Below are positions 4,435 to 22,376 of a stretch of 64,000 bases of DNA, piece after piece. The stretch comes from a virus: the IMG/VR virus record IMGVR_UViG_3300033145_003233, positions 310,001 to 374,000 of that record. One strand, written 5' to 3'. Below the pieces are notes generated by a model. That model was not told the DNA's origin. It did no database searches and saw only the letters and a program-made list of their open reading frames with translations. The number at the start of each line of letters is the position of its first letter. The first letter of the stretch is position 1. The translations under genes and the position numbers were made by a program.

Positions 4435-5388
4435 TTATTTTTTTATTCTTTTATACCATTCTACTGTTTTTCTTATACCTTCTTCTAATGATGTTTGAGG
4501 ATTAAACCCCAACATTTTTATGGCCTTATCAATATTTATTGCTCTCCTGGGAATCATAGTGGGCTTAGATTTATCAAAAACGATATTAGCATTTTCATAT
4601 CCATCTATTTTCAGAATTACATCCAATGTTTTTTTAATAGTATGAGATTCACCAGATGCTAAATTAATAATATCAAAACCATCTACTTTCTCCATGGCCA
4701 GAATTAGTCCATCTACCATATCAGATATATAGGTTATATCTTTAGAATCAAGACCATCGCCCCAAACTCCTATAGGATCATGTCTCTCTACAACTCTTCT
4801 TATCAAAGCTGCTGTAGAATGTGATGTTTCCCATTCATAATCATCATATTCTCCGTACAAATTACCCACTCGTGCAACAATAGTAGTCATAGGATTTTTA
4901 ATTTTGGTAGAGTACATTTCGCACATAACTTCTGAAAACTTTTTCATAGATGCCACGCAAAAATATTTATGAAAAAATTCTCCATTATCATCCTCTTCCT
5001 TAAGGGGAAAATCTACCAATGGATAAACTGTAGTACTACTAACAAATAAAAACTTCTTCACTTTGGCATGATAAGCTGCTTCTAGCATTAAAGTGTTTAT
5101 CAGTACATTAGGAGTGACATGTGCTAATGGATTATATTCCATTACGGCTGCTCCAGACGTATTGGCGGCACACATAAAAACATAATCCTGATTTTTACAA
5201 ATCTTATTACAAAAATTCTTATCTGTCAAATCCCCCCATACAAAAGAAATATTTTCATTTTCGAATTGAGGACCTTTACGATGTAAAGTTGCCTTAACAT
5301 TAGCCCCTAGATCTACTAATCTTTTAATTAAATTTGTTCCTATAAAACCACTTCCACCAGTTACTAGTATCTTCTTACCTTTTAACAT
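4435..5388 (-). CDS. NAD-dependent epimerase/dehydratase (SDR), atypical active site
   Basis: An extended SDR of 317 residues with the cofactor motif TGGSGFIGTN (residues 10-19), substrate-side VSSTTVYP (about 116-123), WGDGLDSKDITYISD and the C-terminal LEEGIRKTVEWY. It resembles GDP-fucose synthase or 4-ketoreductase-type nucleotide-sugar enzymes. In the YxxxK position I read V145-A-S-M-K149 followed by KFSE, so the usual catalytic tyrosine appears to be replaced; the nearest Tyr is 142. It starts at ATG 5388, with AAGGAG six bases upstream, just after rmlC. The exact product cannot be fixed from sequence. Confidence 0.75.
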   Translation of the reverse strand: MLKGKKILVTGGSGFIGTNLIKRLVDLGANVKATLHRKGPQFENENISFVWGDLTDKNFCNKICKNQDYVFMCAANTSGAAVMEYNPLAHVTPNVLINTLMLEAAYHAKVKKFLFVSSTTVYPLVDFPLKEEDDNGEFFHKYFCVASMKKFSEVMCEMYSTKIKNPMTTIVARVGNLYGEYDDYEWETSHSTAALIRRVVERHDPIGVWGDGLDSKDITYISDMVDGLILAMEKVDGFDIINLASGESHTIKKTLDVILKIDGYENANIVFDKSKPTMIPRRAINIDKAIKMLGFNPQTSLEEGIRKTVEWYKRIKK

Positions 5389-5400: not shown

Positions 5401-5931
5401 TTAAGTTATTTCCCCTGTCATGTCTCTTTTAGACAAAATGGGATCAGATATAGGCCACCAAACATTAAAACGAGGATCATCATACTTTACTGTAAATTGA
5501 TTAGCCATACCCTTATAAATACAAGATTGCTTATAAAAGAACATTGCCTCTTCACTCATGACTACATATCCATTCCCATGTTTTGGAGGGATCAAGAGTT
5601 GTTTTTTATTTTCTCCGCTTAATACAAAAGGTTGATACTTTCCAAAATTAGAAGAATCTTTATCATAATTTAAAACATTAACATACATTCTGCCATATAA
5701 ACATGTTACTAATTTCCATGTCCTATCATCACCATGAAAGCCCCTCAAAACATGACGAGAAGACACGGCAATATTATCTTCTAAGAATTCTATTTCTTCA
5801 CCTACAGCTTCTTTTATAGCTTTTGTATAATCTATTTTATTATATAGCTCTTCATAGGTTCCCCTATGATCCTCAAAACTAGAACGATCAAATAAAAAAA
5901 CATTATCCATACTTGTAGTTTGTGCTATCAT
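5401..5931 (-). CDS. rmlC: dTDP-4-dehydrorhamnose 3,5-epimerase-like (RmlC family)
   Basis: A 176-residue cupin with the RmlC hallmarks: VLRGFHGDD (catalytic His66), WKLVTCLYG, IPPKHGNGYVV, FFYKQS (Tyr133) and WPISDPILSKRD. RmlC-type enzymes epimerise C3 and/or C5 of dTDP-4-keto-6-deoxyhexoses. RmlA, RmlB and RmlD are not recognisable nearby, so it may act on another 4-keto sugar made by the neighbouring SDRs (inference). A GGAGG lies upstream of ATG 5931, inside the end of the preceding epimerase gene. Length is normal for the family. Confidence 0.85.
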   Translation of the reverse strand: MIAQTTSMDNVFLFDRSSFEDHRGTYEELYNKIDYTKAIKEAVGEEIEFLEDNIAVSSRHVLRGFHGDDRTWKLVTCLYGRMYVNVLNYDKDSSNFGKYQPFVLSGENKKQLLIPPKHGNGYVVMSEEAMFFYKQSCIYKGMANQFTVKYDDPRFNVWWPISDPILSKRDMTGEIT

Positions 5932-5933: not shown

Positions 5934-6929
5934 TTAAACAACCTCCTCTGCAAAATAATTCTTTCTACTTTTATATTCTTCAGAATTGTCAACAAACCAT
6001 TCCCAAGTTTTTCTCAAGCCTTCCTCTAATGATGTAGATGGTTCATAATGAATCAGTTTTTTAGCAAGAGATATATCCATTACTCTTTTAGGGAAACCTG
6101 AGGGTTTAGTAGTATCAAACTCATAATTAAAGTTTAAAAAACTTTTCAAGGTTTCTACTAATTCTCTAATAGTAACACCTCTCCCACTCCCTAGATTAAC
6201 AAATTTACTATCTGTTCCATAATATAAAGCTTGAATTATTCCTTCTGCGACATCTCTACTGTAAGCAAAATCTCTAATGGCAGAACCGTCGCCCCATATA
6301 ACAACAGGATCTTCCTTGTTATAAATTCTCTGCATAAGAGTAGGAATAACCATAGCGTTCTCAGGATCAAAGTTGTCTCCTGGTCCATAAATATTGGCTG
6401 GCCTAACAATAGCAAAATTCTTCAAACCATATTGAATGTCATAGGCTTCAATTTGTTTTTCTGCCATTCTCTTTGCCCATCCTGGAAACATATCCATAGG
6501 AGGACCATCGAGATTATTATCTTCTTTAAATACCTCTGCGCTTGAATATGCTCCCACAGAGCTAGTGTACACAATCTTTTTCACATTATTATAACGACAA
6601 GCCTCTAACACATTCGTATTCATCATAAGCAATGGAACAAAAAAGCTAGCCGGTTTTTCTTTTGTTACTTTTACAGACCCCTTAATCCCCGCGATATGAA
6701 AGACATAATCAACATCTTTAGTCCATTTCAAACATAAAACATAATCATTCAAATCACCTACTATATGATGAGCGCCTGGAACTCTTATGTTATGATCTAA
6801 AGACACAATAGAAACCTTAGCACCAGCATCTATCAATATCTTAACAACCTGTCGGCCTATTAAACCCGTTCCTCCGGTCACTAAACATTTCTTATCTCTA
6901 AAACTTTCTAAAATATCTTTCTCGATCAT
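5934..6929 (-). CDS. NAD-dependent epimerase/dehydratase (SDR), atypical active site
   Basis: A 331-residue extended SDR. Cofactor motif TGGTGLIGRQ is at about 18-27; YTSSVGAYS at about 121-129 carries the active-site serine; RPANIYGPGDNFDPENA and WGDGSAIRDFAYSRD follow. The YxxxK position reads P149-G-W-A-K153 with RMAE after it, so Tyr is replaced by Pro. Overall it resembles UDP-glucose 4-epimerase/GDP-fucose synthase-like proteins and is closest in this window to the genes at 4435 and 8893. It is tightly packed, two bases before rmlC. Confidence 0.75.
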   Translation of the reverse strand: MIEKDILESFRDKKCLVTGGTGLIGRQVVKILIDAGAKVSIVSLDHNIRVPGAHHIVGDLNDYVLCLKWTKDVDYVFHIAGIKGSVKVTKEKPASFFVPLLMMNTNVLEACRYNNVKKIVYTSSVGAYSSAEVFKEDNNLDGPPMDMFPGWAKRMAEKQIEAYDIQYGLKNFAIVRPANIYGPGDNFDPENAMVIPTLMQRIYNKEDPVVIWGDGSAIRDFAYSRDVAEGIIQALYYGTDSKFVNLGSGRGVTIRELVETLKSFLNFNYEFDTTKPSGFPKRVMDISLAKKLIHYEPSTSLEEGLRKTWEWFVDNSEEYKSRKNYFAEEVV

Positions 6930-6941: not shown

Positions 6942-8069
6942 CTATTTCTTTCTTACATTAACTAGAATCGGCTCTTTCCAATCAAAAGCTATAACCCATG
7001 CCCAATAACGAACTCTGCCCTCTATTAACTCATAGTCATAAAATCCTGTAGGGTCATCAATGGGAGAAACTTTAACTGGATTACATTTTTTATCTTCTTT
7101 TATTCTTTCAGACAACTCAACAGGACTAGGAGCAAATTTCATATCATTAGCTACAGCTTCTTCCACTGTCTTATATACTTTTCTATTACCTCTTCCTCCA
7201 TCATCAACTCTTATTTTTTCTGGATACACATATATTTTTTCTTTCTTAAAGACCCTGCCTATATCAGAAAAATCTTTTTCTGACATATCAAAATCAGAAG
7301 CTCTAGAATTATCTTCAATATGAGAGATATTAGTACTAGCAGGAATAGCCACTACTGAATCATTATGAGTTAACCAATTTAAAATAAGCTGAACAGAAGT
7401 TATGTCGTATTTGTCTATATATTTCTCAAAGATAATTTTTTCTTTATTATTGCCATAAAATTGTCCCTGATCTAAAGGGCTATAAGCTATCAGCGTGATA
7501 TCATTTTTGTCGCAATAAGAAAGAATTTCTTCCTCCACCCCTCTTTCAAAGAGATTATATTCAAGTTGCATAGAAACAATGTCATATTCAAAATTATTAC
7601 GAGCTTTTACAAACTCTTTAAAAGAAAAATTACTAACACCAACATGTTTAATTTTACCTTCCCTAATAAGCTTACCCATAGTCCACATAGTTTCTCCTAT
7701 GGGGATTTTATAATTCGGCCAGTGGATCTGATATAGATCTATACAATCTATACGTAATCTTTTTAAGCTTTCTTCTGCCGATTTTATAACATCATTAGAA
7801 GATAAATGCTCTGGTGACACTTTTGTAGCTATAACTATTTTATCCTTTTTATGTTGTGGAATACTTCCTATAAGTTCTTCAGCATGACCATTACCATAAG
7901 ATTCAGCAGTATCAAAAAAATTAATCCCACAATCTATGGCTTTTTCTATAGCTCTTTTACATTTTTCATCATTAGAAGTATCTGGCTCTAGATAACCGCC
8001 TATCCCCATTGACCCGAAACCAATAGAGGATATATTTATATCAGTATTGCCTAATTTTTTATATTTCAT
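6942..8069 (-). CDS. Aldo/keto reductase fused to a ParB/sulfiredoxin-like domain
   Basis: Residues 1 to about 285 form a complete aldo/keto reductase with the catalytic tetrad D53, Y58 (FFDTAESYG), K83 (ATKV) and H116 (YQIHWP). After a linker, residues about 312-375 read like the start of a ParB-type domain: SPVELSERI, then YELIEGRVRYWAWV and EPILVNV, matching the h-x-G-x-R-Y/H-x-A pattern. The reductase probably reduces a keto-sugar or aldehyde made by its neighbours. The role of the added domain is unknown; some ParB-fold proteins are nucleotide-dependent kinases. It overlaps the SELID copy B gene upstream. Confidence 0.8.
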   Translation of the reverse strand: MKYKKLGNTDINISSIGFGSMGIGGYLEPDTSNDEKCKRAIEKAIDCGINFFDTAESYGNGHAEELIGSIPQHKKDKIVIATKVSPEHLSSNDVIKSAEESLKRLRIDCIDLYQIHWPNYKIPIGETMWTMGKLIREGKIKHVGVSNFSFKEFVKARNNFEYDIVSMQLEYNLFERGVEEEILSYCDKNDITLIAYSPLDQGQFYGNNKEKIIFEKYIDKYDITSVQLILNWLTHNDSVVAIPASTNISHIEDNSRASDFDMSEKDFSDIGRVFKKEKIYVYPEKIRVDDGGRGNRKVYKTVEEAVANDMKFAPSPVELSERIKEDKKCNPVKVSPIDDPTGFYDYELIEGRVRYWAWVIAFDWKEPILVNVRKK

Positions 8070-8502: not shown

Positions 8503-8900
8503 CCTTCTAACCCATCCACATTAATATTTGTTTTAATATCAACTGTATTCGACTCATCTACTTCCTGCATAATAATATTTTTAATTCTATTTCTAATACC
8601 ATTTAACTGATGAGACAATATGAGATGCTTCCCATAATCTTCACCAGAGCTTTTTTTCATTTTCTCTTTCTCTTTCCATATATAAAGATTAATTTGAGAC
8701 AAAATAATAATTAACCTAATAAATGTTGATGATGGTTTAATATCTCTCTTTTCTAAATCTACATTTATATCATGCATTAGATAACCAATCTCTTTTTCAA
8801 AATCATCTATCTCTGCAATATTATCAACCTCTTTAATTTGCTGTATAGACAAATTATCAATCAAATCTGAAAAAGACAAATGACATTCTCTTCTACCCAC
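8484..8900 (-). CDS. Small unknown protein, SELID family copy C
   Basis: The third paralogue, about 138 residues. FSDLIDNLSIQQIKE is followed by MHDINVDLEKRDIK, SQINLYIW and LSHQLNGIRNR. I place the start at GTG 8900 because GGGGAAG lies seven bases upstream; GTG 8906 would be too close. The start overlaps the TAG of the upstream epimerase gene. Copies B and C are tandem, while copy A lies about 4 kb away beside UDP-xylose synthase. Divergence between copies suggests distinct partners or ligands rather than recent duplication. Confidence 0.68.
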   Translation of the reverse strand: MGRRECHLSFSDLIDNLSIQQIKEVDNIAEIDDFEKEIGYLMHDINVDLEKRDIKPSSTFIRLIIILSQINLYIWKEKEKMKKSSGEDYGKHLILSHQLNGIRNRIKNIIMQEVDESNTVDIKTNINVDGLEGWTISL

Positions 8901-9912
8901 TAACACACTTCCCCACTTTTCTACTAGCTATGAATTTATTATTTTTATACCATTCCATAGTCTTTTTGATGCCTTCTTCCAAATTAACTCTAGGAACAAA
9001 AGAAAGCAAGGCCTTAGCTCTATTCGTATCAAGTATTCTTATCCTGTCACCAGAAGGCTTACTACTATCCCATTTCACTTCTATCTCTTCCGGCATCAAA
9101 TCGACAAGAGTTTCAACTAATTCTTTGATAGAAATTCCTCGTCCACTTCCTAAATTTATAGGAGTACAGGGAGGAGCATCTTTACATGCCATTAAAATTC
9201 CATCTACAACATCATCTACAAATATAAAATCTCTTTCAGCAGTCCCATCTCCTGCTATTTTCATGGGGTTCTCCCCATTTACCGCTCTACTAATTAAGGC
9301 CGGAATAACCTGTGCTGTTTCGGGATCGAAATCATCATAAGGACCATATACATTTGACAATCTTACAATCCTACCTGCGTCCCATCCATATTGAAGCATA
9401 TATGCTTCCGCTTGAGCTTCTCCGACTCTCTTAGCAATCCCGGCAAATCTATCATTAGCATGGGGAGGACCATCCCAAACTGAATCTTCGTGCCGTACTG
9501 AGAGATTGGGGTATTCACAAATACTACCAACAAACAAAAACCTTTTGACATTAGCTAATCTAGAAGCTTCCATCAAATTAGTATCAGCCATCAACAATGG
9601 AACGAAAGTACTAGCAACTTTCGATTCCCCTATTTGTGTACTCCCCTTTACACAGACTAAATTAAAAACATAATCGTAATCATGAACTAGGTCCTTACAA
9701 GCTTGGAAATCAGTTAAATCTACATATAAATTATAAACATCATATCCCTTAAAAACAGCCATAACCCTTTCCACTGAATCAATAGAAGCGACTGTTACAT
9801 ATGCCCCCATATCCATAAGCCGCTTAACTAATGGAGTTCCTATAGTTCCACTTCCTCCAGCCACTAATATATTTTTATCTTTATAAAATGAAATAAGATG
9901 TTCTGGAAACAT
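8893..9912 (-). CDS. NAD-dependent epimerase/dehydratase (SDR), atypical active site
   Basis: A 339-residue extended SDR: AGGSGTIGTP at about 18-27, FVGSICEYP around 128-135, RLSNVYGPYDDFDPE, GDGTAERDFIFVDD and LEEGIKKTMEWY. The YxxxK position reads A157-G-I-A-K161 followed by RVGE, so the tyrosine is replaced by alanine. It is the third member of the atypical group (with 4435 and 5934). The start overlaps the end of the TylF-like gene, and the end overlaps SELID copy C. It probably acts on a nucleotide-activated hexose; direction and product are unknown. Confidence 0.75.
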   Translation of the reverse strand: MFPEHLISFYKDKNILVAGGSGTIGTPLVKRLMDMGAYVTVASIDSVERVMAVFKGYDVYNLYVDLTDFQACKDLVHDYDYVFNLVCVKGSTQIGESKVASTFVPLLMADTNLMEASRLANVKRFLFVGSICEYPNLSVRHEDSVWDGPPHANDRFAGIAKRVGEAQAEAYMLQYGWDAGRIVRLSNVYGPYDDFDPETAQVIPALISRAVNGENPMKIAGDGTAERDFIFVDDVVDGILMACKDAPPCTPINLGSGRGISIKELVETLVDLMPEEIEVKWDSSKPSGDRIRILDTNRAKALLSFVPRVNLEEGIKKTMEWYKNNKFIASRKVGKCVSG

Positions 9913-10636
9913 ATCTATATCTTTCTAATTTAATATTATTCAAACCCATCACCTCTCTTAATGCTACCGTCTCTCCTGGAGAATCCCGATCATTTAACTC
10001 GTCAAATCCCAACACGCTCCCCTTAACCAAATAAGGCTTTATAATTTCGAGACATTTTTTAGTAGGCTCATATAAATCAAAATCAAAATAAGCTAAAGAT
10101 ACAATAGTTTCTGGATGCGCCTTTAAATATTCAGCTAATTTCTTAGGGCCATCTCCCTTTAATATCTCAAATTTCTTTATATGAGAAATAGGATTGTCTT
10201 TTTCTTGTAAAGTTAAAATGTGTTCTAAATATTTTTCATAGTTGTTAGTTACATTATCTGCCCCATCAACCATCAAAGCAGATTTTCCATCTTTTTTATT
10301 AATATTTATAAAACCTTCAAAAGTATCAAAAGCTAATATCTTTCTATGTCTATTAAATGGCTCATATATACCTCTCAATGCAGCTAAAATAGATGCGTTT
10401 TGTCCCCACCGAGTACCAAATTCTATAATAATTCCATGCTTATCAATTATCTTGTTATATAAAAAATCAAAAAACAAAATACGAGAAAGATTTTTAGAAT
10501 TTAGAAATAACCCCAGATTAGATAAAATTTCATCATCAGGAAGAGGGTTCTCCTTAAAAGCAGTAAGCATTTCATTCCTAGCTTCTTCCTCTTTATCGCT
10601 ACTAAAATCTATATTTCCCAATTTTGTTTTACTCAT
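9881..10636 (-). CDS. TylF/macrocin O-methyltransferase-like protein
   Basis: A 251-residue class I methyltransferase fold. IIEFGTRWGQNAS (about 90-102) is motif I, AFDTFEGF the following acidic loop, and AYFDFDLYEPTKK with GFDELND the metal-binding/active-site part typical of TylF-type sugar O-methyltransferases. It is related to the gene at 57931, which has the same D-x-DLYEP element. Likely substrate is a deoxysugar hydroxyl in nucleotide-linked or glycosidic form. It lies between the three SDRs and the transketolase genes. Confidence 0.75.
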   Translation of the reverse strand: MSKTKLGNIDFSSDKEEEARNEMLTAFKENPLPDDEILSNLGLFLNSKNLSRILFFDFLYNKIIDKHGIIIEFGTRWGQNASILAALRGIYEPFNRHRKILAFDTFEGFININKKDGKSALMVDGADNVTNNYEKYLEHILTLQEKDNPISHIKKFEILKGDGPKKLAEYLKAHPETIVSLAYFDFDLYEPTKKCLEIIKPYLVKGSVLGFDELNDRDSPGETVALREVMGLNNIKLERYRYVSRTSYFIL

Positions 10637-10637: not shown

Positions 10638-11597
10638 TTATAATTTTTCCCAAACAGTTATAGAATAACCATCTCCCAATAGGCTTCCACATGGGACTCT
10701 CACCATTTTAATTATTTTAATTATTTTCTCTTTTTCCATCCTCATTAATTTTGTAAAGAAACCTTTCAAATAATTTCTATTATTTTCTAACTTACAAATA
10801 ATATAATCAGTCAAATTAGTGTCAGTATCATAAAACTCTAACATCGAATTGACATGTACATGTCTACTAAAAGGCTTGTCTAGTAAAAATTGTAAAAAAT
10901 CACCATATCTATTGCCTAGTTGTTCCAATGCTCCCAAAGTAAAGCTAACCCCGCCATCTTGAACTAAAAAATCATTATCAGGATAAAACATATCAAAAAT
11001 GCCACCATGAATATCATAATGAAATTTATCTCTGATAAGATTAATGATTGCTTGCGGTTGGCGGACCCAATCAACACCATAATAACTTTTTTCTGGAGCC
11101 ATCTCACAAAAAGATAACAAATTAGCACATGAGCCACAACCGAACTCGTAGATATTATCCTTGTCTTTTAAAAATGAATCAAAAACAAATGCTCTTATTA
11201 AATCTACAAAATTTTTCTCAAAATTATCATCCACTGATCTCACATAATCTCCAAACAAACGAATAGGAGAACCGCTCCTGAAATACTGAGGAGCCAAAGC
11301 AGCTTTGTCATACCCACTCTCAATAAAATTATCTTGTATTTCCCCCCAACCCTTCTCCCATTTTTCTTTTTTACCTTCACCAGATTTAGTAAAAATCTCT
11401 GCATCTATTCTTTTTATGAGTTCAAGTATTATTTTATCTCTTTCCCTCCTATCAATATGCCTATACCTAAAATCCCTATTATTAATTATATTAACACAGG
11501 ATAATGGCATCTCATTTTGATCAATATCAAAAATCATAGAGAAATCTTTAACGGTAAGATTGTGAATGTTTTCTCCCACTTTATTATTTTTCCACAA
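10638..11597 (-). CDS. SAM-dependent methyltransferase
   Basis: A 319-residue protein. About 140 N-terminal residues of unknown type precede a class I methyltransferase domain with IYEFGCGSCANLLSF as motif I, YYGVDWV as the acidic loop and later VSFTLGALEQLG. The start at 11597 overlaps the transketolase C-terminal gene by 14 bases. The N-terminal extension is longer than in simple methyltransferases and could hold a substrate-binding domain. I cannot tell whether the acceptor is sugar, lipid or protein; context favours sugar. Confidence 0.65.
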   Translation of the reverse strand: MWKNNKVGENIHNLTVKDFSMIFDIDQNEMPLSCVNIINNRDFRYRHIDRRERDKIILELIKRIDAEIFTKSGEGKKEKWEKGWGEIQDNFIESGYDKAALAPQYFRSGSPIRLFGDYVRSVDDNFEKNFVDLIRAFVFDSFLKDKDNIYEFGCGSCANLLSFCEMAPEKSYYGVDWVRQPQAIINLIRDKFHYDIHGGIFDMFYPDNDFLVQDGGVSFTLGALEQLGNRYGDFLQFLLDKPFSRHVHVNSMLEFYDTDTNLTDYIICKLENNRNYLKGFFTKLMRMEKEKIIKIIKMVRVPCGSLLGDGYSITVWEKL

Positions 11598-12543
11598 AAG
11601 ATAAAATAGATTTAATTATACTATCTTTATCGAGTCCATATTCAGAACGAATCCAATTTCTGTCCCCGTATTTTTTACAAAATTCATCTGGCAAAGATAT
11701 TTTCTTTAATGGCTTATATATATTATTCTCAACCATAAGCTCACTTATTATACTTCCCAATCCACCGATACAAGAATGCTCCTCCACCACAACTACTCTT
11801 TTAGAACCTGATATTATTCTAGCTGCTTCTTTATCATTAAATGGTTTAATCCTAAATACATCTCTATAAGTAGTGAATACTCCTTCTTTATGAGTTAAAT
11901 ATTCTGCTGCTTCTATTACATCATACATGTTAGTCCCAGTAGAAAAAATTACAACATCTGGTTTCCCATAAGGACCACATATTCCAAGACTAAACGGAAC
12001 TGAGTCCTTATTTGGTTCTGGAAAAATAAAGTTATCATATTCTGGCAAGGGAGAATAATCACCCTTATCTAATCTAATATATGTTGGACCATCATTCTCA
12101 TATGCCTTCTGAGCAACATAAGAATTCATAACTGGACCTGAAGGACTATATATAGTTAAATTAGGAAGAGTTCTCATGATCGCGATATCATTAAGAGAAT
12201 GATGAGTAGGCCCATCATTACTAAACGTAAGACCAGCCCCGATACCAATAATTGTAACAGGTAAATTCATGCAACATAAGTCAATTTTTATCTGCTCAAA
12301 ACACCTTTCTGTTACAAATGGAGTGATAGTATAAACACAAACTTTTTTGCCAGCTTTGGCTAACCCAGCCGCTACACTTATCATATTCTGTTCAGCTACG
12401 CCAACATTGATAAATCTACGCCCCAGTTTTTCTTTAAACTTAGATAAACTAAATGCCCACATATCAGCAGTAAGAAAATAAAAATTATCATCATCTTTAA
12501 CTAAATCATATAATCTGTCAAAAAATGCGTCTCTAAGGTCCAT
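11584..12543 (-). CDS. Transketolase-like, C-terminal subunit (Pyr + C domains)
   Basis: A 319-residue protein matching the second half of transketolase. GVAEQNMISVAAGLA contains the catalytic glutamate that activates the thiamine diphosphate aminopyrimidine; FSNDGPTHHS and the later IRSEYGLDKD-type tail are typical. With the adjacent N-terminal subunit it should form an alpha2-beta2 enzyme that moves two-carbon ketol units between sugars. Split transketolases of this type occur in archaea, many bacteria and sugar antibiotic or polysaccharide loci. It overlaps the N-subunit gene by 11 bases, consistent with coupled synthesis. Confidence 0.85.
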   Translation of the reverse strand: MDLRDAFFDRLYDLVKDDDNFYFLTADMWAFSLSKFKEKLGRRFINVGVAEQNMISVAAGLAKAGKKVCVYTITPFVTERCFEQIKIDLCCMNLPVTIIGIGAGLTFSNDGPTHHSLNDIAIMRTLPNLTIYSPSGPVMNSYVAQKAYENDGPTYIRLDKGDYSPLPEYDNFIFPEPNKDSVPFSLGICGPYGKPDVVIFSTGTNMYDVIEAAEYLTHKEGVFTTYRDVFRIKPFNDKEAARIISGSKRVVVVEEHSCIGGLGSIISELMVENNIYKPLKKISLPDEFCKKYGDRNWIRSEYGLDKDSIIKSILSFVEK

Positions 12544-13312
12544 TTATTTCCCTCCTAGCAATTTCTAATTGTTCATCATTAGGAACTCCGTGATGCCATT
12601 TGGGAACATTCTCCATATAAGATATCCCCTTTCCCTTAACAGTATTAGCTATAATAACCAATGGTTGATATGGATTAACTTTCTTACCCTTCTTAATATA
12701 TTCAATTATCTGTTTTACATCATGGCCATTAATATTACAAACTGCCCATCCACACTGACGAAGCCGACCTCCCAAATATTGTAATGAACAAGAATCCTTC
12801 ATAAAATCAGTGGCGCAAATATTATTCTTATCTATAATTAAAATTATATTATTTAAACTGTGTTGAGCAGCAAATAAAATAGATTCCCAAACAGATCCCT
12901 CATTACATTCTCCATCCCCCATCAGAACATATATGTCCCCTTTTTCTTCATCATTTATTCTAGCCAATGCCATACCACAAGCGACACCAAGACCATGACC
13001 TAAGGACCCAGTATCAAATTCAACTCCCTTAATATTTATATCTGGATGGCCTCCCAATGGATTCCCATTTAAATAACATTCTTCATAATCCTTATCATTT
13101 ATATATCCCAAATCATGCAAAATAGGATAGAACGCCATAGAAACATGTCCTTTACTTAAAATAAATTTATCATCTTCCTCAAGAATTCCACCATAATAAA
13201 GGGCCACCAATATTTCCACACATGAAAGAGCACCTCCGACATGTCCTTTCTTAGATCTATATAATATATCTAAGATCTCATTTCTTAACCATTTACATTT
13301 ATCTTCCAGCAT
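12533..13312 (-). CDS. Transketolase-like, N-terminal subunit (TPP-binding domain)
   Basis: A 259-residue protein with SKGH (about 53-56), TGSLGHGLG (101-109) and the thiamine diphosphate/Mg motif MGDGECNEG with the distal DKNN. The length equals the N-terminal third of a standard transketolase. It is followed directly by the partner subunit and preceded, with a shared base, by the E1 beta gene. The two TPP enzymes in one operon suggest carbon-skeleton building of an unusual sugar. Confidence 0.87.
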   Translation of the reverse strand: MLEDKCKWLRNEILDILYRSKKGHVGGALSCVEILVALYYGGILEEDDKFILSKGHVSMAFYPILHDLGYINDKDYEECYLNGNPLGGHPDINIKGVEFDTGSLGHGLGVACGMALARINDEEKGDIYVLMGDGECNEGSVWESILFAAQHSLNNIILIIDKNNICATDFMKDSCSLQYLGGRLRQCGWAVCNINGHDVKQIIEYIKKGKKVNPYQPLVIIANTVKGKGISYMENVPKWHHGVPNDEQLEIARREINGP

Positions 13313-14358
13313 TAAAATGGACCTTTAAATTTATTTTCATAATTATAAAATTCTTCACCTTCCACATTAATAGAAGATAAACCGAACATCTTTTCAACTG
13401 TTCTAATAATATCAACAGAATCAGGATAAAACTCATTTTCTAGATGTCTAGCCGTAGGACAAGGAGTGTGAGCGAAACCCATTCTTTCTATAGGGCAATC
13501 TAATAACCGGAAACAACTACTATATATTGTCGCTGCCAGTTCCGCACCAAAACCGCAGTGAACCCAGTCATAATCTGCTATTATACATTTACGAGTTTTG
13601 CTAACAGACTCAACCATTGGTTTCAAATCTACAGACGATATACACCTAGCATCTATTATCTCAACAGATATCCCGTACTTCTCTAAAACTTGAGCGGCTC
13701 TCAATGCCTCGACATTCATCCACGAGGTAGCTATAATAGTAACATCCTCTCCGTCCCTTATCTTGCTGGCCTTATCTAGGGGAACTCTAAAACTCTTTTC
13801 TTCTACTTCTCCCTCCTGGAAATATAACCACCTATGTTCCATAATCATAACCGGATTATCATCACGAATAGCTGCTATCATCATTCCCTTTACATCTCTT
13901 ACAGTTGTGGGCATCACAACTTTTAAACCTGGGATATGAGCGAAAATAGATTGCATAGTTTTAGTATGTTGACATCCCTGCCCCCAACCCCTACCTATAA
14001 TATTCCTTATTACGATAGGAATTTTCAATTTACCATCAGACATATATCTAAAACTTGATATTTGATTAATTAATTGATTCATAGCTAGAAGAGAAAAGTC
14101 AACTCTCATATGAACAAGGATAGGTCTCAACCCATTAATTGCTGCTCCAAGAGCAAACCCTGTTAGACTATCTTCAGATAAAGGAGTATCAAAACACCTA
14201 TCTTTTCCAAAAGTTTCTTGCAATCTTTCAGTTGTGCCAAAAATCTTCTTACAATCAGGAACGCCTATGCCATAAATAAAGACATTCTTATCCCTTTCCA
14301 TTTCTTGATAAATAGCCTCGTTAATTGCTTCTTTATATGTTATTTTTTTATCTCTCAT
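13312..14358 (-). CDS. 2-oxoacid dehydrogenase-type E1 beta subunit
   Basis: A 348-residue protein resembling pyruvate/acetoin dehydrogenase E1 beta: DTPLSEDSLTGFALGAA with catalytic Glu62, RGWGQGCQHTKTMQSIF, and a C-terminal domain with TSWMNVEALRAA and HTPCPTARHLE. The partner alpha domain is the C-terminal half of the gene immediately upstream. There are no E2 or E3 genes here, so an oxidative decarboxylase complex is unlikely. Orphan E1 alpha/beta pairs in avilamycin and aldgamycin-type pathways attach a two-carbon unit to a keto-sugar; I propose the same here. Confidence 0.85.
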   Translation of the reverse strand: MRDKKITYKEAINEAIYQEMERDKNVFIYGIGVPDCKKIFGTTERLQETFGKDRCFDTPLSEDSLTGFALGAAINGLRPILVHMRVDFSLLAMNQLINQISSFRYMSDGKLKIPIVIRNIIGRGWGQGCQHTKTMQSIFAHIPGLKVVMPTTVRDVKGMMIAAIRDDNPVMIMEHRWLYFQEGEVEEKSFRVPLDKASKIRDGEDVTIIATSWMNVEALRAAQVLEKYGISVEIIDARCISSVDLKPMVESVSKTRKCIIADYDWVHCGFGAELAATIYSSCFRLLDCPIERMGFAHTPCPTARHLENEFYPDSVDIIRTVEKMFGLSSINVEGEEFYNYENKFKGPF

Positions 14359-14360
14359 AA

Positions 14361-16187
14361 TTACTCAAATAAAACATTATTATAAAGTTCACTAACATCT
14401 GAAGATTCTGATACCTTAGCAAATTCCAAACTTCTATATATTTGCTCATCTATTTCTTTATTTACTTTTTCTATGTCCAAATCCGGATGATCTTTAAGCA
14501 ACAAATCTCTTGAATATTCTAAAGGATCTTCTACCTTATTCAACTCATCTCTACTACGATACCCAGCTTCCCAATCATCGCATACTCCAACATGTTCCAG
14601 ACATCTAAGATAATTAAATGACATGAAATGAGGTCGATTAGTTGCCCTTATATCTTCTACTATTTTTTTTGTATCATGATAAATATGATCAACTTTTGTA
14701 GTTTTGTAATTATGCACAGTTAACCTGAAATTATCCATAAAGTCACATATATCATCATAACCATGTCTTTCTTTTTTTGAAGTACACACAGCTAAATCAT
14801 TATCTTCATACACAAATAGAACTGGAAGTTGCCATAAAGATGCCATATTTATACTTTCCCAAAAATTCCCCTCATCAACAGCCCCGTCCCCAAAGAACAC
14901 AACCACTACTCTACCATTTTTTTTCATTTTATTAGCAAACGCTGCCCCAGTCGCTACAGAAATATTGCTAGCAACGATAGCAGATGATGACATATACCCC
15001 TCTTCAGGACAAGCTATATGCATAGAACCAGCTTTGCCTCTAGCCTCTCCAGTTTTTTTCCCATACATTTCTGCAAAAAAGCCATGAGTATCTCTTGTTT
15101 TAGCCAGATATGGAGCATGAGTGCGATATGTAGTAAAAATTTGATCGTCATCATTCAAAGCTCCTATAATTCCAACTGATATAGCTTCTTCTCCTCTCGA
15201 CATATGCATAGGAGTTTTCATTTCATCATCAAAATAATTATCTATTATTACACTCTCTGCTTTTCTAATTAAATAAATCTTTTTATACAACTCCAAACTC
15301 AAGTCCCACTTTTCACTTGTCCTGCCCTGAGAAATAGTAGTCAACTTCTTATCATTAACATATGTTGCAACTGGATCAGATCTCTTAGACCTTGCCACTA
15401 CAATGCATCTCTCCACCTGTCTTTTTGTTGCCCTAATAATTCTGTCAATTCCATATTTTTCTGAAGAATTTAATCTCCATTCACACCACAAAGAAGAAAA
15501 TAAAGCTGCATCTCGAGCTGCTAGAGATGGACTAATAGAACCATAACCTTCATTATTCTCTACTGTTCTAACTTCTTTTACATAAATAGATTGCCCGCCA
15601 GCTTCATAAAGACGCATAGCAAAATCTTCAGCATAATAACTACAAATAAAATTCTTATCAATTCCACCTAACTTGAAATATGCTTCCTTATGGAACATTA
15701 AACCAGCCCCATTAGGGAGAAAAGGACAATAATAACCCCTGCTTAAATGTTTACCACTACGCTTACCAAAAAAGAACCTACTAGGACTAGCTCTTTTACA
15801 TATCACAAATTTATCTATCTTAGGCTTATAAATATAACGACCCAATGCACCTGCTGAAAAATTATATTCATTATTACCTAATTCTATCAAATGATCATAT
15901 AAGCAATCTAATGCATTCTTATTGGGATAACTCAAATCATCACCACTATTAAAAATAAAATCTCCTCTGGCCTCCAACATTCCTATATGAAAACACTGAG
16001 CTGGTTTTACTTCGGCATAAATATATCTAAAATTTTCAGGTAGTTCAAAATCCGGTCTTATATGTCCAATAAAAATAACTTCAAATGGTATATAATTCTC
16101 TTGTAAGCCATCATAATACTCTTTCCAAAAATCTATTTTAATAGCTGGAGAAACAACACTTACTATTGGTTTTATATAAGAACACAT
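14361..16187 (-). CDS. Glycosyltransferase (GT-A) fused to E1 alpha subunit
   Basis: A 608-residue fusion. Residues 1-295 are a GT-A-like glycosyltransferase: AEVKPAQCFHIG, NSGDDLSYPN (acidic pair 83-84), PNGAGLMFHKEAYFKLGG and YAEDFAMRLYEAG. This half is paralogous to the whole protein at 41560, and both end with TISQG-x4-KWD (here 284-295). Directly after KWD, residues 296-608 form a pyruvate/acetoin dehydrogenase E1 alpha with MHMSRGEEA, GSMHI, the TPP motif GDGAVDEG (433-440) and EDND. E1 beta follows three bases downstream. Both halves look intact. The fusion could channel a modified sugar or simply reflect loss of a stop codon. Confidence 0.88.
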   Translation of the reverse strand: MCSYIKPIVSVVSPAIKIDFWKEYYDGLQENYIPFEVIFIGHIRPDFELPENFRYIYAEVKPAQCFHIGMLEARGDFIFNSGDDLSYPNKNALDCLYDHLIELGNNEYNFSAGALGRYIYKPKIDKFVICKRASPSRFFFGKRSGKHLSRGYYCPFLPNGAGLMFHKEAYFKLGGIDKNFICSYYAEDFAMRLYEAGGQSIYVKEVRTVENNEGYGSISPSLAARDAALFSSLWCEWRLNSSEKYGIDRIIRATKRQVERCIVVARSKRSDPVATYVNDKKLTTISQGRTSEKWDLSLELYKKIYLIRKAESVIIDNYFDDEMKTPMHMSRGEEAISVGIIGALNDDDQIFTTYRTHAPYLAKTRDTHGFFAEMYGKKTGEARGKAGSMHIACPEEGYMSSSAIVASNISVATGAAFANKMKKNGRVVVVFFGDGAVDEGNFWESINMASLWQLPVLFVYEDNDLAVCTSKKERHGYDDICDFMDNFRLTVHNYKTTKVDHIYHDTKKIVEDIRATNRPHFMSFNYLRCLEHVGVCDDWEAGYRSRDELNKVEDPLEYSRDLLLKDHPDLDIEKVNKEIDEQIYRSLEFAKVSESSDVSELYNNVLFE

Positions 16188-16192: not shown

Positions 16193-16897
16193 TTACCCTT
16201 TACCATTTTTTAAACAAGATAAAACTTCATTTATTTCCAAATTGGCTCTATAGGCTGAAACCTTATCTATTTTATAAAGTTTTTTAACCAACTGAATCTT
16301 ATCATTATCAACAATAGAAGTATTAATATATACCACTTCACGCCATTTAGGACTTTTTTTATTAATAATCCTTGCTGGCACAAAAGAACAAGCTGACAAA
16401 AAATCATGCACAACATTTAAAAGAGGGATACCCTCATAACATCTTTTAAGCCACATTTCTAAATGAATAACAATAATCTGGTTCATATAATTCTTTACAT
16501 TCTTCAAGATATCATATTCAGAACCTTGAGCATCTATCTTTAAAACATCAATACCGTGACCACTTTGTTCTATAATCTTAGCAAGGCTCTTACATTTGAC
16601 AGGCTTAGAATCAACGACTTCCATACAATCAAATTCTATACGATCATCTTTATAATATTTCATATCGGGAACAAAAAGAGAACTATTTTGCCCATCTTTA
16701 GTTATATAAAGAATCTTCTCTTTCCCATCTGAAATAGCACAATCATAATAGAAATATTTATCATCTATTACCTTATTGCTTTCAAATCTAGGATCCAAAC
16801 CGATATACTTTTCTATGTATTTGCGATATCTTTTTTTATCAAAAGGAAAAACAAATCCACCAAAAGCACCTACATCAAAATATATTAACTTACTTAT
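16193..16897 (-). CDS. FkbM-family methyltransferase with no ATG/GTG/TTG start
   Basis: The frame encodes an FkbM methyltransferase: motif I IYFDVGAFGGF (about residues 5-15), then IDVLKIDAQGSEYDIL and a VIHLEMW segment. Motif I lies upstream of the first usable start codon, a TTG at 16798 that would delete it. Between the in-frame TAA at 16925-16927 and that TTG the only near-cognate candidates are ATA 16897 and ATT 16909, so I give 16897. A GGAGAG lies near 16913-16918. The gene overlaps the end of the dehydratase gene in another frame. The start codon may be mutated, noncanonical, or reached by coupling or frameshift. Confidence 0.6.
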   Translation of the reverse strand: MSKLIYFDVGAFGGFVFPFDKKRYRKYIEKYIGLDPRFESNKVIDDKYFYYDCAISDGKEKILYITKDGQNSSLFVPDMKYYKDDRIEFDCMEVVDSKPVKCKSLAKIIEQSGHGIDVLKIDAQGSEYDILKNVKNYMNQIIVIHLEMWLKRCYEGIPLLNVVHDFLSACSFVPARIINKKSPKWREVVYINTSIVDNDKIQLVKKLYKIDKVSAYRANLEINEVLSCLKNGKG

Positions 16898-17870
16898 TTC
16901 TTGCGTAATATTCTCTCCAGAAATTTAAAGTATCTTTTAATGTAATATCAAAATCAATGGTAGGCTCCCATCCAGTTTCTTTTTTAAATTTATCAACACA
17001 TGGAATTTGCAATGTCACATCAGATGGCCTTAGTAAAGACTTATCAACTATAACCTTCATATTTTTCGTAGTTGACATCCCTATTAATTTATCCAACATC
17101 TCTCTAATAGTCATTGTGAAATTACCACCTATGTTATATACTTCTCCATATTTACACTCATTAACCATCATCCAGTATGCCCTCACTGTGTCCCTAACAT
17201 CAGCAAATGTCCTAACGCTATCCAAATTACCCACTTTAATAATAGGCTCTTGCAATCCAGCTTCTATCTTTGCTATCTGTTTAGCAAAAGCCGCAACTAC
17301 AAAAACATCTCCTCTTTTAGGCCCAGTATGTGTAAACATTCTTGACCTAATAGTTTTTATTCCGTAAGAAATCCAATATTGTAACCCAAGCATATCCTCC
17401 CCAACCTTAGAAACGGCGTAAGGAGAAGCAGGCTTAAGAGGACAATCTTCTTCTATAGGAATATCTTTTTCATCAACCTGTCCGTACACTTCTGAGGACG
17501 AACAAATATGAACAATAGGATCATAGTCTTCCTCTTCTTTTATAATCTTAATCGCCTCTAATAAATTACATGTCCCTATCACATTTGAATCCAATGTGGC
17601 GGCAGGAACATCAAAACTATATGGTACGTAAGACTGAGCAGCCAAATGAAAAATATATTTTGGCATAACCTTCTTAATTATACGATATAAAGAAGAAAAA
17701 TCTGTTAAATCTCCATGATGAAAAGTTACAGAATCCAGCAAATGCAAAATATTTTCTTTTGGAGATCTCCATCTAGTTAACCCATGAACCTCTACATCTG
17801 TTTCTGCTAACAAATAATCTGCTAAATGACTTCCTACAAAACCAGTTACTCCAGTAATAAATGCTTTCAT
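16890..17870 (-). CDS. gmd: GDP-mannose 4,6-dehydratase-like SDR
   Basis: A 326-residue extended SDR with TGVTGFVGSHL at the N-terminus, HLAAQSYVPYSF, CSSSEVYGQV, an intact SPYAVSK (Tyr/Lys pair) and the C-terminal LRPSDVTLQIPCVDKFKKET, which is the GDP-mannose dehydratase family element (RP-[AS]-[ED]-V). The likely product is GDP-4-keto-6-deoxymannose, feeding GDP-fucose, GDP-rhamnose or GDP-perosamine-like sugars. A GDP-6-deoxy-4-keto reductase role is possible. Unlike the three SDRs at 4.4-9.9 kb it keeps the standard active site. Confidence 0.8.
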   Translation of the reverse strand: MKAFITGVTGFVGSHLADYLLAETDVEVHGLTRWRSPKENILHLLDSVTFHHGDLTDFSSLYRIIKKVMPKYIFHLAAQSYVPYSFDVPAATLDSNVIGTCNLLEAIKIIKEEEDYDPIVHICSSSEVYGQVDEKDIPIEEDCPLKPASPYAVSKVGEDMLGLQYWISYGIKTIRSRMFTHTGPKRGDVFVVAAFAKQIAKIEAGLQEPIIKVGNLDSVRTFADVRDTVRAYWMMVNECKYGEVYNIGGNFTMTIREMLDKLIGMSTTKNMKVIVDKSLLRPSDVTLQIPCVDKFKKETGWEPTIDFDITLKDTLNFWREYYARNK

Positions 17871-19248: not shown

Positions 19249-19896
19249 CTATAACAATTCAGATAGATTGTGAATTATCGTAATATTTTTATCTGCAAAA
19301 TAACTTCTCCAGTCATACATATTCGTGTACCCGCTAACAAAAATAAAATCCATGTTATTCTCAACCGATACTTCATAATCATATTTCGCATCACCCACAA
19401 AGATAGCTGGTTCTAAATAGCCCTCCTCTCTTATAGATGAAATTATTTCATTCTTAGTTCTTGGGCTACCATAAACTCCCTTAAAATTTTTATGCAACCC
19501 CCTAAGACGTAAAACATTATCCACTTCTTCTTGCTTCCCTCCAGAAACAACAAATATATCCTTCCCACTACCTATAACTCTCGCCAGAAACTTCAATGCC
19601 CCCTGAGTTTCCCTACAACCAGTTAATAAACGAGCACATTCTTTACCAAATTCATCTACTAACATTTGCACTGTTTTGTCATTAATATCTTCTTTTAAAA
19701 CTTCAAAAACAAATTTATTTATTTTTTCATACCTTGTAACCCCTCCCATCTCCTTATGTAGCATTACAAACTTGCGAGCTGCACACTCTCCGTATAGCAT
19801 ACCTATTCTATGAAAAGCTTTAGTTTTAACCCAATTCGAATCAATCAAAACTCCATCGCAATCAAAAAACCATGTATTATATTTTGTTAAGTCCAT
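19249..19896 (-). CDS. HAD-superfamily phosphatase
   Basis: A 215-residue HAD hydrolase: motif I DCDGVLIDSN (nucleophile near residue 12), motif II FVVSGG, and motif IV FVGDAKYDYEV, with a helical cap between I and II (subclass I). It overlaps the aldolase gene by ten bases. In ulosonic acid pathways a HAD phosphatase removes phosphate from the aldol product (as KdsC does for KDO-8-phosphate). Here it could do so for the product of the neighbouring HpcH-type aldolase (inference). Confidence 0.8.
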   Translation of the reverse strand: MDLTKYNTWFFDCDGVLIDSNWVKTKAFHRIGMLYGECAARKFVMLHKEMGGVTRYEKINKFVFEVLKEDINDKTVQMLVDEFGKECARLLTGCRETQGALKFLARVIGSGKDIFVVSGGKQEEVDNVLRLRGLHKNFKGVYGSPRTKNEIISSIREEGYLEPAIFVGDAKYDYEVSVENNMDFIFVSGYTNMYDWRSYFADKNITIIHNLSELL

Positions 19897-20669
19897 AATC
19901 TTTGCTGTATCCCCCTTTTCAAAAATTCTCTACATTTTTCTTCCATAAAAACAGCGTCAGTCCCCACAGCTATCATCCGATAACCTTGAATAGTAGCTTC
20001 TTTAATTTTTTCCACAGTTGGCCTCACTACATGAATACCCATAGGTATATTATGCTCTTTAGACCTTTCTTGATAAAAAGATAAAATATTCTTATAATCT
20101 TTGCTTTCAAAATCGCCTGGCTTACCGAGAGAACCAGATAAATCATATGGGCCAATAAAAGTTCCATCAATCCCCTTAACACTCAAAATAAAATCTAAAT
20201 CTACCATCGCATCAACATGCTCAATCTGAAGAATAATAGAAATCTCATTATTGGCATTTCTCACGTAATTATCAAAATCGCTTCCGTACCAATTAGCACG
20301 ACTATAACCAAAACTTCTTCTTCCAAGAGGAGGATATAAAGCCTCTCCTACCGCCTGCTCAGCCTCACTATGATTTTTTATCATCGGTATAATTAAACCC
20401 TTGGCCCCGGCGTCCAAAACTCTGTGAATCCATATATAATCATTCTTAGGAATCCTAACTATAGGAGTTATATCAAACCTTTCAATAGTTCTTATAAGAT
20501 TAGTCATGGACTCCATACCAATAACCCCATGCTCCATATCTATACAAATCCATTTAAGATTATTATTACAATTATTGGCCATTATTTCAATAATAGCAGG
20601 ATGAGGTATTTGTATCCAAGCCCCAAAACAAGCCGAATTGTTTTTCAAAGAATCTTTTAATTTATTCAA
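19887..20669 (-). CDS. HpcH/HpaI-family aldolase
   Basis: A 260-residue TIM-barrel aldolase: GAWIQIPHPAI, ICIDMEHG, VRIPKNDYIW, LDAGAKGLIIPM, RSFGYSRANWYG and TFIGPYDLSGSLG. These are the conserved elements of class II, metal-dependent 2-keto-3-deoxy-aldonate aldolases, which join or split pyruvate and an aldehyde. Beside a KdsB-like cytidylyltransferase and a HAD phosphatase, it may build the carbon chain of a 3-deoxy-ulosonic acid in place of a PEP-dependent synthase (inference). It overlaps the dehydrogenase gene by eight bases. Confidence 0.82.
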   Translation of the reverse strand: MNKLKDSLKNNSACFGAWIQIPHPAIIEIMANNCNNNLKWICIDMEHGVIGMESMTNLIRTIERFDITPIVRIPKNDYIWIHRVLDAGAKGLIIPMIKNHSEAEQAVGEALYPPLGRRSFGYSRANWYGSDFDNYVRNANNEISIILQIEHVDAMVDLDFILSVKGIDGTFIGPYDLSGSLGKPGDFESKDYKNILSFYQERSKEHNIPMGIHVVRPTVEKIKEATIQGYRMIAVGTDAVFMEEKCREFLKRGIQQRLWT

Positions 20670-21615
20670 AATCTTCCTCCGTAACTAAATTTAATGGCTC
20701 TGCTCCATTTAAAACTCTAATACAATTTTGAGCTGCCCCCAGTTCCATCAAAAATCTAGAATTTCTATCTGAAGCTCCAATATGAGCAGTAAAAAGGACA
20801 TTATCATATTCTCTCAAACCACCATCATAAGGTTCATTTTCAAATACATCTAACGCTGCACCCCCTAAATGATGATTATAAATACAACTCTCTAAATCTT
20901 TCTCATTTAATATAGGACCTCTCGATGTATTAACGATATAAGATCCCTTTTTCATACTCGACATATCGTTGAGAGTTACAAAATGATAATTTTTTTCATT
21001 CAAAGGAATATGGATAGTAACCAAATCGCTTTTTTCAAACAACTCATTTTTATTTACCCACTTAATCCCATCTATACCAGCATTCGGTTTTATATCACAA
21101 GCATATATATTTTTAGGATTAAATGGTTTTAATCTTTCTATAACTCTACTACCTATTCTTCCTACTCCCAAGACACCTATTGATAAATCTCTTATAGATG
21201 CCCCAAGAATACGATTCCATCTCTTATCTCTTACCGATTTATCAGAAATAACAATGCCCCTAAACAAGTTTATTATTTGAGCAATAGCTAGATCTGCCAC
21301 AGAATCACAAGGAGCATTAGGGGTATAGGCAACTGTAATATTATTTTTCTGACAATACGGAAAATCTATACCATCTAAACCAGATCCCACTCTTGAAATA
21401 ACTTTCAATTCTTTGAAATCCTTAATAAATTCACCTGCATATGATTCCGTTCCAGCTATAACCCCATCTATGCCGTCCAATAAATCTCTCACTTCTCCCT
21501 TTTTTATTCTTCTCCCTAGTGAATTATAAGTTATATTCCATCCTGTTTCATTAAGAAGCTTAACTGGCAAATCTCCACATAAACCAAATGGATAAGTAGC
21601 TATAAATATATTCAT
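20662..21615 (-). CDS. D-isomer-specific 2-hydroxyacid dehydrogenase
   Basis: A 317-residue dehydrogenase of the phosphoglycerate/lactate dehydrogenase type. The NAD motif is GVLGVGRIGSRV; catalytic residues lie in ISRVGSG (Arg), FENEP (Glu) and AHIGA (His); VNTSRGPILNE is also conserved. There is no ACT domain. It sits between the aldolase and the cytidylyltransferase with small overlaps. It may reduce or oxidise an alpha-keto or hydroxy acid used as precursor in that pathway. A second member is at 38003, next to the NeuA gene. Confidence 0.8.
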   Translation of the reverse strand: MNIFIATYPFGLCGDLPVKLLNETGWNITYNSLGRRIKKGEVRDLLDGIDGVIAGTESYAGEFIKDFKELKVISRVGSGLDGIDFPYCQKNNITVAYTPNAPCDSVADLAIAQIINLFRGIVISDKSVRDKRWNRILGASIRDLSIGVLGVGRIGSRVIERLKPFNPKNIYACDIKPNAGIDGIKWVNKNELFEKSDLVTIHIPLNEKNYHFVTLNDMSSMKKGSYIVNTSRGPILNEKDLESCIYNHHLGGAALDVFENEPYDGGLREYDNVLFTAHIGASDRNSRFLMELGAAQNCIRVLNGAEPLNLVTEEDFE

Positions 21616-22376
21616 ATAGATCTATCCTCTCCCTTTATAGTAGAGCGTTTTTTTATTATTTCCACAATCCTATTTCTATCTTCTGGAGTGTCCACACTAA
21701 TGCTATCATGCTCAGTATATCTCATATGTATCTCTATGTCATTTTCTATCAATCTGTTCAACCCTATGCCCTCCATATTTTCCAATGGTGATGATTTTAA
21801 ATAGCTATATAGTTTTAACATCTCCCCAGAAAATGCATATACTCCTATTTGTTTTATTATCTTAACATCATCATTCGTTCTTTTTGTTTTCTCATCATGA
21901 TATGGTATAGAATATCTAGAAAAATATAGCGCCTTTTGATTCCTTGACACCACAACTTTGACAGCATTGCTATCATACATATCGTAAGGATCATGCACCT
22001 CAGTATAAAAATTAACAATTGAAGGAGACAAATCCACATTTAATGTTTCGGTGTTGAATAAAGGCTCATCTCCCTGAATAACAATATACCTATCCGCAAA
22101 TGTCCCGCTATCTTCCAATCTTTCAACAACTTCTGCTGCCCTGTCTAGACAATCTGTATGACTATCCTTAGTCATTATAAAAGGAATAGAAAAATCCGTA
22201 CATTTTCTAGCTATGTCTGAACTATCAGTAGCAACAAAAACTTTGTCCCATTTATCCCAGACCATAACGGAATCATAGACACGTTTTATCATTGGCATCC
22301 CCAGGATATCACACAAAGGCTTACCTGGAAAACGAGAAGACTGATAACGAGCAGGTATAATACCTATATATTTCAT
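21612..22376 (-). CDS. KdsB-like CMP-ulosonate cytidylyltransferase
   Basis: A 254-residue protein with the nucleotidyltransferase signature IIPARYQSSRFPGKPL (residues 6-21), VATDS and VIQGDEPLF, as in 3-deoxy-manno-octulosonate cytidylyltransferase. It should activate a keto-deoxy sugar acid with CTP. KdsA and KdsD are not recognisable here, while an HpcH aldolase, a 2-hydroxyacid dehydrogenase and a HAD phosphatase are directly downstream. The sugar may therefore be an unusual relative of KDO, or KDO from the host. Confidence 0.8.
   Translation of the reverse strand: MKYIGIIPARYQSSRFPGKPLCDILGMPMIKRVYDSVMVWDKWDKVFVATDSSDIARKCTDFSIPFIMTKDSHTDCLDRAAEVVERLEDSGTFADRYIVIQGDEPLFNTETLNVDLSPSIVNFYTEVHDPYDMYDSNAVKVVVSRNQKALYFSRYSIPYHDEKTKRTNDDVKIIKQIGVYAFSGEMLKLYSYLKSSPLENMEGIGLNRLIENDIEIHMRYTEHDSISVDTPEDRNRIVEIIKKRSTIKGEDRSI

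Follow-up and report, generated by a model that had tools for sequence, protein, structure and literature searches.

The stretch of viral DNA analyzed here, called the window, comprises 64,000 nucleotides (bases 310001-374000) of the 547,943-bp virus record IMGVR_UViG_3300033145_003233. On its minus strand it encodes the alpha and beta chains of a thiamine diphosphate (ThDP)-dependent E1 enzyme resembling that of pyruvate dehydrogenase (PDH) and both halves of a split transketolase (TK). An initial annotation placed these four genes in one operon and proposed that the E1 pair attaches a two-carbon (C2) unit to a keto-sugar, as orphan E1 pairs do in avilamycin and aldgamycin biosynthesis, with TK supplying another C2 transfer. 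The four identities are borne out by profile matches and the operon-like arrangement by the overlapping or abutting minus-strand genes at 11584-16187, which with one gene on each side are the following.

10638-11597, minus: conserved module protein without a Pfam match, predicted class I S-adenosylmethionine methyltransferase fold (AlphaFold/Foldseek); homologs in 18 bacterial and 4 viral loci
11584-12543, minus: TK, C-terminal half (PF02779, 7e-29; PF02780, 6e-16); nearest solved structure 6yaj (1e-39); glycine at the position of the phosphate-binding histidine
12533-13312, minus: TK, N-terminal ThDP-binding half (PF00456, 7e-30); nearest solved structure the N-chain of split TK 6yak (9.5e-48)
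13312-14358, minus: E1-beta with a C-terminal extension ending in FKGPF (PF02779 and PF02780; PRK09212, 2e-93)
14361-16187, minus: whole reading frame of a 608-aa fusion of a GT-A glycosyltransferase (GT) with E1-alpha
14361-15305, minus: E1-alpha, ThDP-binding half (fusion residues about 295-608; PF00676, 4e-39; TIGR03182, 8e-72), with an EHVG loop
15306-16187, minus: GT-A GT with GDD and ED motifs (fusion residues 1 to about 294), no Pfam match
16193-16798, minus: FkbM-family methyltransferase (PF05050, 1.6e-9)

From the FkbM-family gene through the 10638-11597 gene the successive spacings are +5, +2, -1, -11, and -14 bases; the E1/TK core and its two flanking genes are arranged as in one transcription unit, and a search for promoters and terminators gave no usable signal. 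The E1 pair retains an intact ThDP machinery, including the GDG...DN motif, the conserved Glu62 of E1-beta, and His131. The AlphaFold model of the 10638-11597 protein has a pLDDT of 93.4, and its top Foldseek matches are natural-product methyltransferases (2e-8).

The orphan E1 pair and its subfamily

Profiles for E2 (PF00198), E3 (PF02852), and the lipoyl domain (PF00364) find no match in the whole 547,943-bp record; as controls, they are positive in 10, 14, and 14 of 14 genomes. A genome scan with the 608-aa fusion as query gave no matches, and an E1-beta alignment used as query then found relatives, of which 80 bacterial and 30 viral loci were taken, 95 of them (72 bacterial, 23 viral) having a clear E1-beta. 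E2 or E3 lies within 10 kb of E1-beta in none of these 95 loci. The initial annotation had noted the lack of a lipoyl E2 or E3 in the window and regarded such genes nearby in the full genome as one finding that would speak against its proposal; none was encountered, either across the record or beside E1-beta in the related loci. E2 is entirely missing from 5 of the 12 whole genomes of module-carrying bacteria, a count to be read with the incompleteness of metagenome-assembled genomes in mind and yet hard to explain by gaps in the assemblies. Five more have a separate, PDH-like E1-beta on the same contig as E2 and within about 2 kb of it, the module E1-beta being located elsewhere (E1-beta adjoining E2, for example, in G015:C156, G016:C1:4834790, G023:C26, G025:C182, and G026:C22).

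These results bear on the possibility that the genes are auxiliary genes of central metabolism, by which the phage would boost host pyruvate dehydrogenase (through E1) and the pentose phosphate pathway (through TK) during infection. The top named matches are indeed PDH E1-alpha/beta and transketolase, and phages are generally known to carry such genes. Nevertheless, in addition to the missing E2 and E3 in the phage and the relatives residing in bacterial genomes without any E2, module E1-alpha, E1-beta, and both TK halves all score below the NCBIfam equivalog cut-offs for PDH, 1-deoxy-D-xylulose-5-phosphate synthase (DXS), or TK, the phosphate-binding histidine of TK is lost, and the neighbors across many phyla are nucleotide-sugar genes. 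A role in central metabolism is thus highly improbable.

Subfamily residues likewise set the pair apart from PDH. Where the PDH control (Priestia) has GHS in a loop of E1-alpha, 76 of the 97 aligned rows have EHVG and nearly all others have xH[V/C/I]G. In 91 of 96 relatives E1-beta carries 20-odd additional residues with an F-x-G-P-F/Y end, which the PDH control lacks, and solved E1-beta chains of PDH and branched-chain ketoacid dehydrogenase align to about residue 325 of the 348 residues of phage E1-beta. Neither PDH trait, the GHS loop or an E1-beta ending near residue 325, is found in the phage pair. EHVG, FKGPF, and the glycine at the TK phosphate site can serve as search marks and allow correction of pyruvate dehydrogenase and transketolase annotations. 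Two distinct E1 pairs occur in a single locus in bacterial loci L045, L048, and L053 and in G025:C13, perhaps as an alternative route to two C2 transfers.

The E1-alpha domain was recognized in the initial annotation, which overlooked that the first ~294 residues of its reading frame are a complete GT. This part is 24-36% identical to stand-alone GTs adjoining the module in loci L011, L019, L091, L099, and L097, and the fusion junction coincides with the end of these proteins (...TVSQGPKGRW) and the start of E1-alpha. Foldseek with its AlphaFold model (pLDDT 74.9, pTM 0.78) returns glycosyltransferase 6p61 as top match (3e-10), followed by the fucosyltransferase WrtF, and a GT-A fold for the N-terminal part is confirmed at the level of the predicted structure. 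In the closest relative, L001, E1-alpha is unfused.

Neighboring genes and the proposed sugar branch

The genes that surround the core in the window are as follows.

16890-17870, minus: extended short-chain dehydrogenase/reductase (SDR), nucleoside diphosphate (NDP)-sugar 4,6-dehydratase, GDP-mannose 4,6-dehydratase-like (PF16363, 3e-80; TIGR01472 gmd, 2.5e-56)
9881-10636, minus: methyltransferase, weakly Methyltransf_24-like (PF13578, 9e-4, below cut-off); 53-65% identical homologs in the module elsewhere
8893-9912, minus: extended SDR, GDP-fucose-synthase-like (PF01370, 7e-42; NF047922, 1.6e-41, below cut-off)
6942-8069, minus: aldo-keto reductase (AKR; PF00248, 7e-67)
5934-6929, minus: extended SDR, 64-81% identical to module SDRs of the closest loci
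5401-5931, minus: RmlC-type 3,5-epimerase (cupin; PF00908, 1.3e-36)
4435-5388, minus: extended SDR of the module, from comparison with related loci
3029-3997, minus: extended SDR, LegB/4,6-dehydratase-like (TIGR04180, 1.6e-43, below cut-off)

The SDR, RmlC, and methyltransferase genes initially described around the E1/TK core are present, together with the AKR. A homolog of the 16890-17870 dehydratase is the commonest neighbor of the E1 pair, lying at most 10 kb from E1-beta in 42 of the 72 bacterial loci and 12 of the 23 viral ones. In the 49 loci with an E1-beta at least 50% identical, a dehydratase homolog of at least 40% identity is found in 38, RmlC in 22, the 10638-11597 protein in 21, and an AKR or classical SDR in 31. 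AKR and classical SDR are both present in just 2 loci, which would fit their being interchangeable reductases for one step, although the counts are small. In many phyla, among them Omnitrophota, the Candidate Phyla Radiation, Planctomycetota, and Thermodesulfobacteriota, the E1 genes are repeatedly accompanied by 4,6-dehydratase, RmlC, and SDRs, a conserved neighborhood. Niveispirillum and Azospirillum are examples of cultured bacteria that carry the module. The AKR of the window and that of L001 (13677-14780) both have a C-terminal extension of about 100 residues beyond the AKR profile.

This neighborhood also bears on whether the E1 pair might form a small non-sugar molecule by carboligation, such as an acetoin-like compound or a secondary metabolite, and be merely clustered with glycan genes. 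The one Streptomyces relative compared by sequence (41% identical, of unassigned role), on a plasmid of Streptomyces griseofuscus, belongs to a polyketide-type cluster in which no sugar genes are obvious, as would be expected from such an activity. That relative is distant, however; the close clade lies mostly beside the 4,6-dehydratase, and phage E1-alpha is fused to a GT, making a non-sugar product quite improbable.

Sugar branching by E1 pairs has precedent in the alpha-KADH2 pairs (AviB1/AviB2, Pau11/Pau12, aldgamycin, KbDH), which place a C2 unit from pyruvate onto a ring ketone, the branch then possibly being reduced, methylated, oxidized, or transaminated (PMC12247030). Like the phage genes, the pairs of avilamycin, paulomycin, kibdelomycin, and aldgamycin biosynthesis are E1 alpha/beta without E2/E3 beside deoxysugar genes, and Pau12 (345 aa) is close in length to phage E1-beta (348 aa). 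Paulomycin and the phage also have an AKR in common, and the AKR Pau7 reduces the acetyl branch (PMC4753412); with its role drawn from Pau7, the 6942-8069 AKR is a candidate reductase of the branch ketone. In avilamycin, and by proposal also in paulomycin, the C2 unit is added once the keto-sugar is attached to the chain (PMC4425429); such on-chain addition fits the phage GT fusion. The fusion itself is a feature of the phage, unlike the known alpha-KADH2 systems. Sugar-branching E1 pairs have so far been described mainly from antibiotic-making bacteria, and the known alpha-KADH2 pairs belong to actinobacterial antibiotic pathways, whereas the phage pair lies in a glycan island and its relatives in surface-glycan-like loci of many uncultured bacteria. 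A YerE-type flavoprotein likewise forms a C2 branch on a 4-keto-sugar of a bacterial surface glycan, that of yersiniose, but is a single acetolactate-synthase-like chain of a subfamily unrelated to the phage E1 pair (PMC12247030).

The orphan E1 pair of the phage glycan island is therefore likely to be a ThDP-dependent sugar-branching carboligase of the alpha-KADH2 type, with the split TK as second C2 transferase. In the proposed order of steps, the 4,6-dehydratase (16890-17870) would turn an NDP-hexose into a keto-sugar, and the E1 pair would add a C2 unit to the ring ketone, yielding a tertiary-alcohol branch; the donor would most likely be pyruvate, which loses CO2 in the reaction. Reduction of the branch ketone would then fall to the AKR or an SDR, RmlC and the SDRs would set the stereochemistry, the methyltransferases would decorate the sugar, and GTs would build the chain. 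Given the fusion of E1-alpha to a GT, the branch may be added to the growing glycan, or right at transfer onto it; dehydratase, E1 pair, AKR, and GT fusion would together match the order of avilamycin and that proposed for paulomycin, in which the keto-sugar is joined first and the C2 unit added afterwards.

The split transketolase

The phage TK is a two-chain split with ThDP motifs kept, as is its nearest solved relative, the split TK of Carboxydothermus hydrogenoformans, each of whose two chains (6yaj/6yak) is matched. The substrate phosphate is held by histidine in TK, His469 in the yeast enzyme, and by arginine in DXS. In alignments this position is glycine in 12 of 12 module TKs, in contrast to histidine in 6yaj and arginine in DXS. 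Other TK copies in the same bacterial genomes have the histidine (L150, L152, L154) or are DXS with arginine; a further paralog, L149, and L156 are module-like. Because glycine replaces histidine while TKs of the same genomes keep it, the module TK is an additional, specialized paralog, probably not using ordinary sugar phosphates.

In a TK-centered viral scan, the E1 pair is present in 7 of 10 loci with the module-type TK signature; since L122, L124, and L125 duplicate the contigs of L001, L099, and L101, and L137 is a near-copy matching L123, the independent count is below 7/10. Some of these E1 pairs are much diverged (28-32% identity), and they are accompanied by the same set of genes, for AKR, methyltransferase, SDR, and RmlC.

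For miharamycin and amipurimycin biosynthesis, split TKs are the proposed source of a hydroxyacetyl branch, an activity that according to a 2025 review has been demonstrated in vitro for none of them (PMC12247030). These Streptomyces enzymes, likened by description only, are two-gene TKs as in the phage; unlike them, the phage TK adjoins an E1 pair and is without the phosphate-binding histidine. It would probably act as a second, dedicated C2 (ketol) carboligase on substrates that are not phosphorylated, by hydroxyacetyl addition or a similar reaction. A second C2 transferase is plausible and is the weaker part of the interpretation. The 2-hydroxyacid dehydrogenase encoded nearby was considered as supplier of hydroxypyruvate for TK and dropped, as the gene does not recur with the module.

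Several findings weigh against the interpretation given here. No member of the E1 clade has a known enzyme activity, substrate, or product, and the likeness to AviB1/B2, Pau11/12, and KbDH is drawn from gene content and published descriptions. The fused GT-E1-alpha is found in one contig only, that of this phage, and internal TTG codons near the junction make separate translation of E1-alpha possible. Only a minority of E1 loci also have TK (about 10 of the 72 bacterial ones), and the module of L097, a related phage contig, has no TK. As this close relative has the E1 module without it, TK is accessory. Of the two activities initially proposed, sugar branching by E1 is accordingly well supported on comparative grounds, through the loci and genomes without E2 or E3, the neighbors, and the subfamily residues, while C2 transfer by TK is plausible, on the basis of its paralogy, the glycine-for-histidine change, and co-location.

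The scarcity of TK among E1 loci and its absence from L097 would also be expected if the E1 pair branched the sugar and TK served another step, such as making a heptulose-type sugar precursor or supplying the adjoining ulosonic-acid genes. Viral locus L132, which has TK without the E1 pair beside the same SDR/RmlC/AKR neighbors, points in the same direction, as do the HpaI aldolase, 2-hydroxyacid dehydrogenase, and KdsB-like genes adjoining the module. However, glycine in place of the phosphate-binding histidine speaks against sugar phosphates as substrates, and TK directly abuts E1 in several unrelated genomes and phages; a separate step for TK is thus considered unlikely.

Carrier phage and glycan island

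The carrier of the E1/TK module is a huge phage. Its record encodes a terminase large subunit at 33774-35219 (phrog_2, 3.5e-24), missed by the PF03237 profile and recovered with that of phrog_2, and a phage-type clamp and clamp loader in the regions flanking the window. The G+C content of the window (0.32) is close to that of its flanks (0.33-0.34), so the genes are expected to be resident. Two further viral contigs carry the module, G001 (350,866 bp) and G007 (219,188 bp), and have core genes in common with the 547,943-bp record (G000): G007 has a syntenic stretch of replication genes with identity up to 68%, and in the sampled stretches of G001 the top common gene is 61% identical. A terminase was searched for in G001 and G007 and not found, and their phage status follows from the replication genes in common with G000 and from their IMG/VR listing. 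As core genes are common to the three contigs and their E1-beta proteins form a single clade in the tree (support 96), these contigs look like a huge-phage lineage. Matches to E1 and TK in phage collections, 23-40% identical, were set aside as apparent bacterial contamination, most of them coming from short records without annotation or from an Acinetobacter 'phage' record that has acoA/acoB.

The phage carrier, the GT fusion, the wide occurrence beyond actinobacterial antibiotic clusters, and the changed TK residue appear, from these comparisons, to be new, and E1-pair and split-TK types lie side by side in phages and many bacterial phyla. It is conceivable, though on balance doubtful, that the E1 pair and the phosphate-independent split TK each add a different C2 unit to the sugar of the huge-phage lineage, that the E1 branch is put on at transfer by the GT-E1-alpha fusion, and that many uncultured bacterial phyla use the same enzyme pair for their surface glycans. 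If sugar branching by these enzymes is correct, ThDP carboligation would join the repertoire of viruses, small, ready enzyme pairs would be available for making tertiary alcohols, and branched sugars would be predicted on phage particles or on the surfaces of infected and uncultured bacteria.

The glycan island, over 60 kb in size, extends beyond the window and also encodes NeuB, KdsB, and KdsC/NeuA-like functions, Maf-like proteins, sulfotransferases, and numerous GTs. Jumbo cyanophages, P-SSM2 among them, likewise carry LPS/capsule clusters of SDR, cupin, and GT genes, which have been interpreted as serving O-antigen remodeling; those clusters have about 15 genes, with no transketolase or pyruvate enzyme mentioned in the survey (PMC7824862), in contrast to an island of over 60 kb with ThDP carboligases. 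The glycan of this phage may serve O-antigen remodeling or, alternatively, virion glycosylation. Weak MptE-like (Maf-type) matches occur at window positions 2195-3019, 22380-23060, and 32133-32873, and Maf proteins attach nonulosonic acids to flagellin, so that virion proteins might be glycosylated.

Three NeuB-type synthases are encoded in this one phage, at window positions 34520-35311 and 48000-49457, the second with SAF and cupin domains, and at L004 5883-6746; with a NeuA-like gene (L004 11875-12789) and a KdsC-like gene (L004 4787-5314), several nonulosonic acid routes may coexist in one virus. Adjoining the module, an HpaI-type aldolase, a 2-hydroxyacid dehydrogenase, and a KdsB-like cytidylyltransferase are consecutive at window positions 19887-22376, and the latter two genes lie beside the module in L001 too. 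Phage-type genes flanking or inside the island include an RlaP-like nucleotidyltransferase of RNA repair (window 485-1393) and a protein with MerR and GIY-YIG/NUMOD3 domains (32851-33660). In G007 (L167 8674-11152), a DNA polymerase III alpha homolog is split into two open reading frames, the second of which opens with an intein-like end (VVHNC) before CHAAGVVVSD, suggesting a possible intein in this related huge phage.

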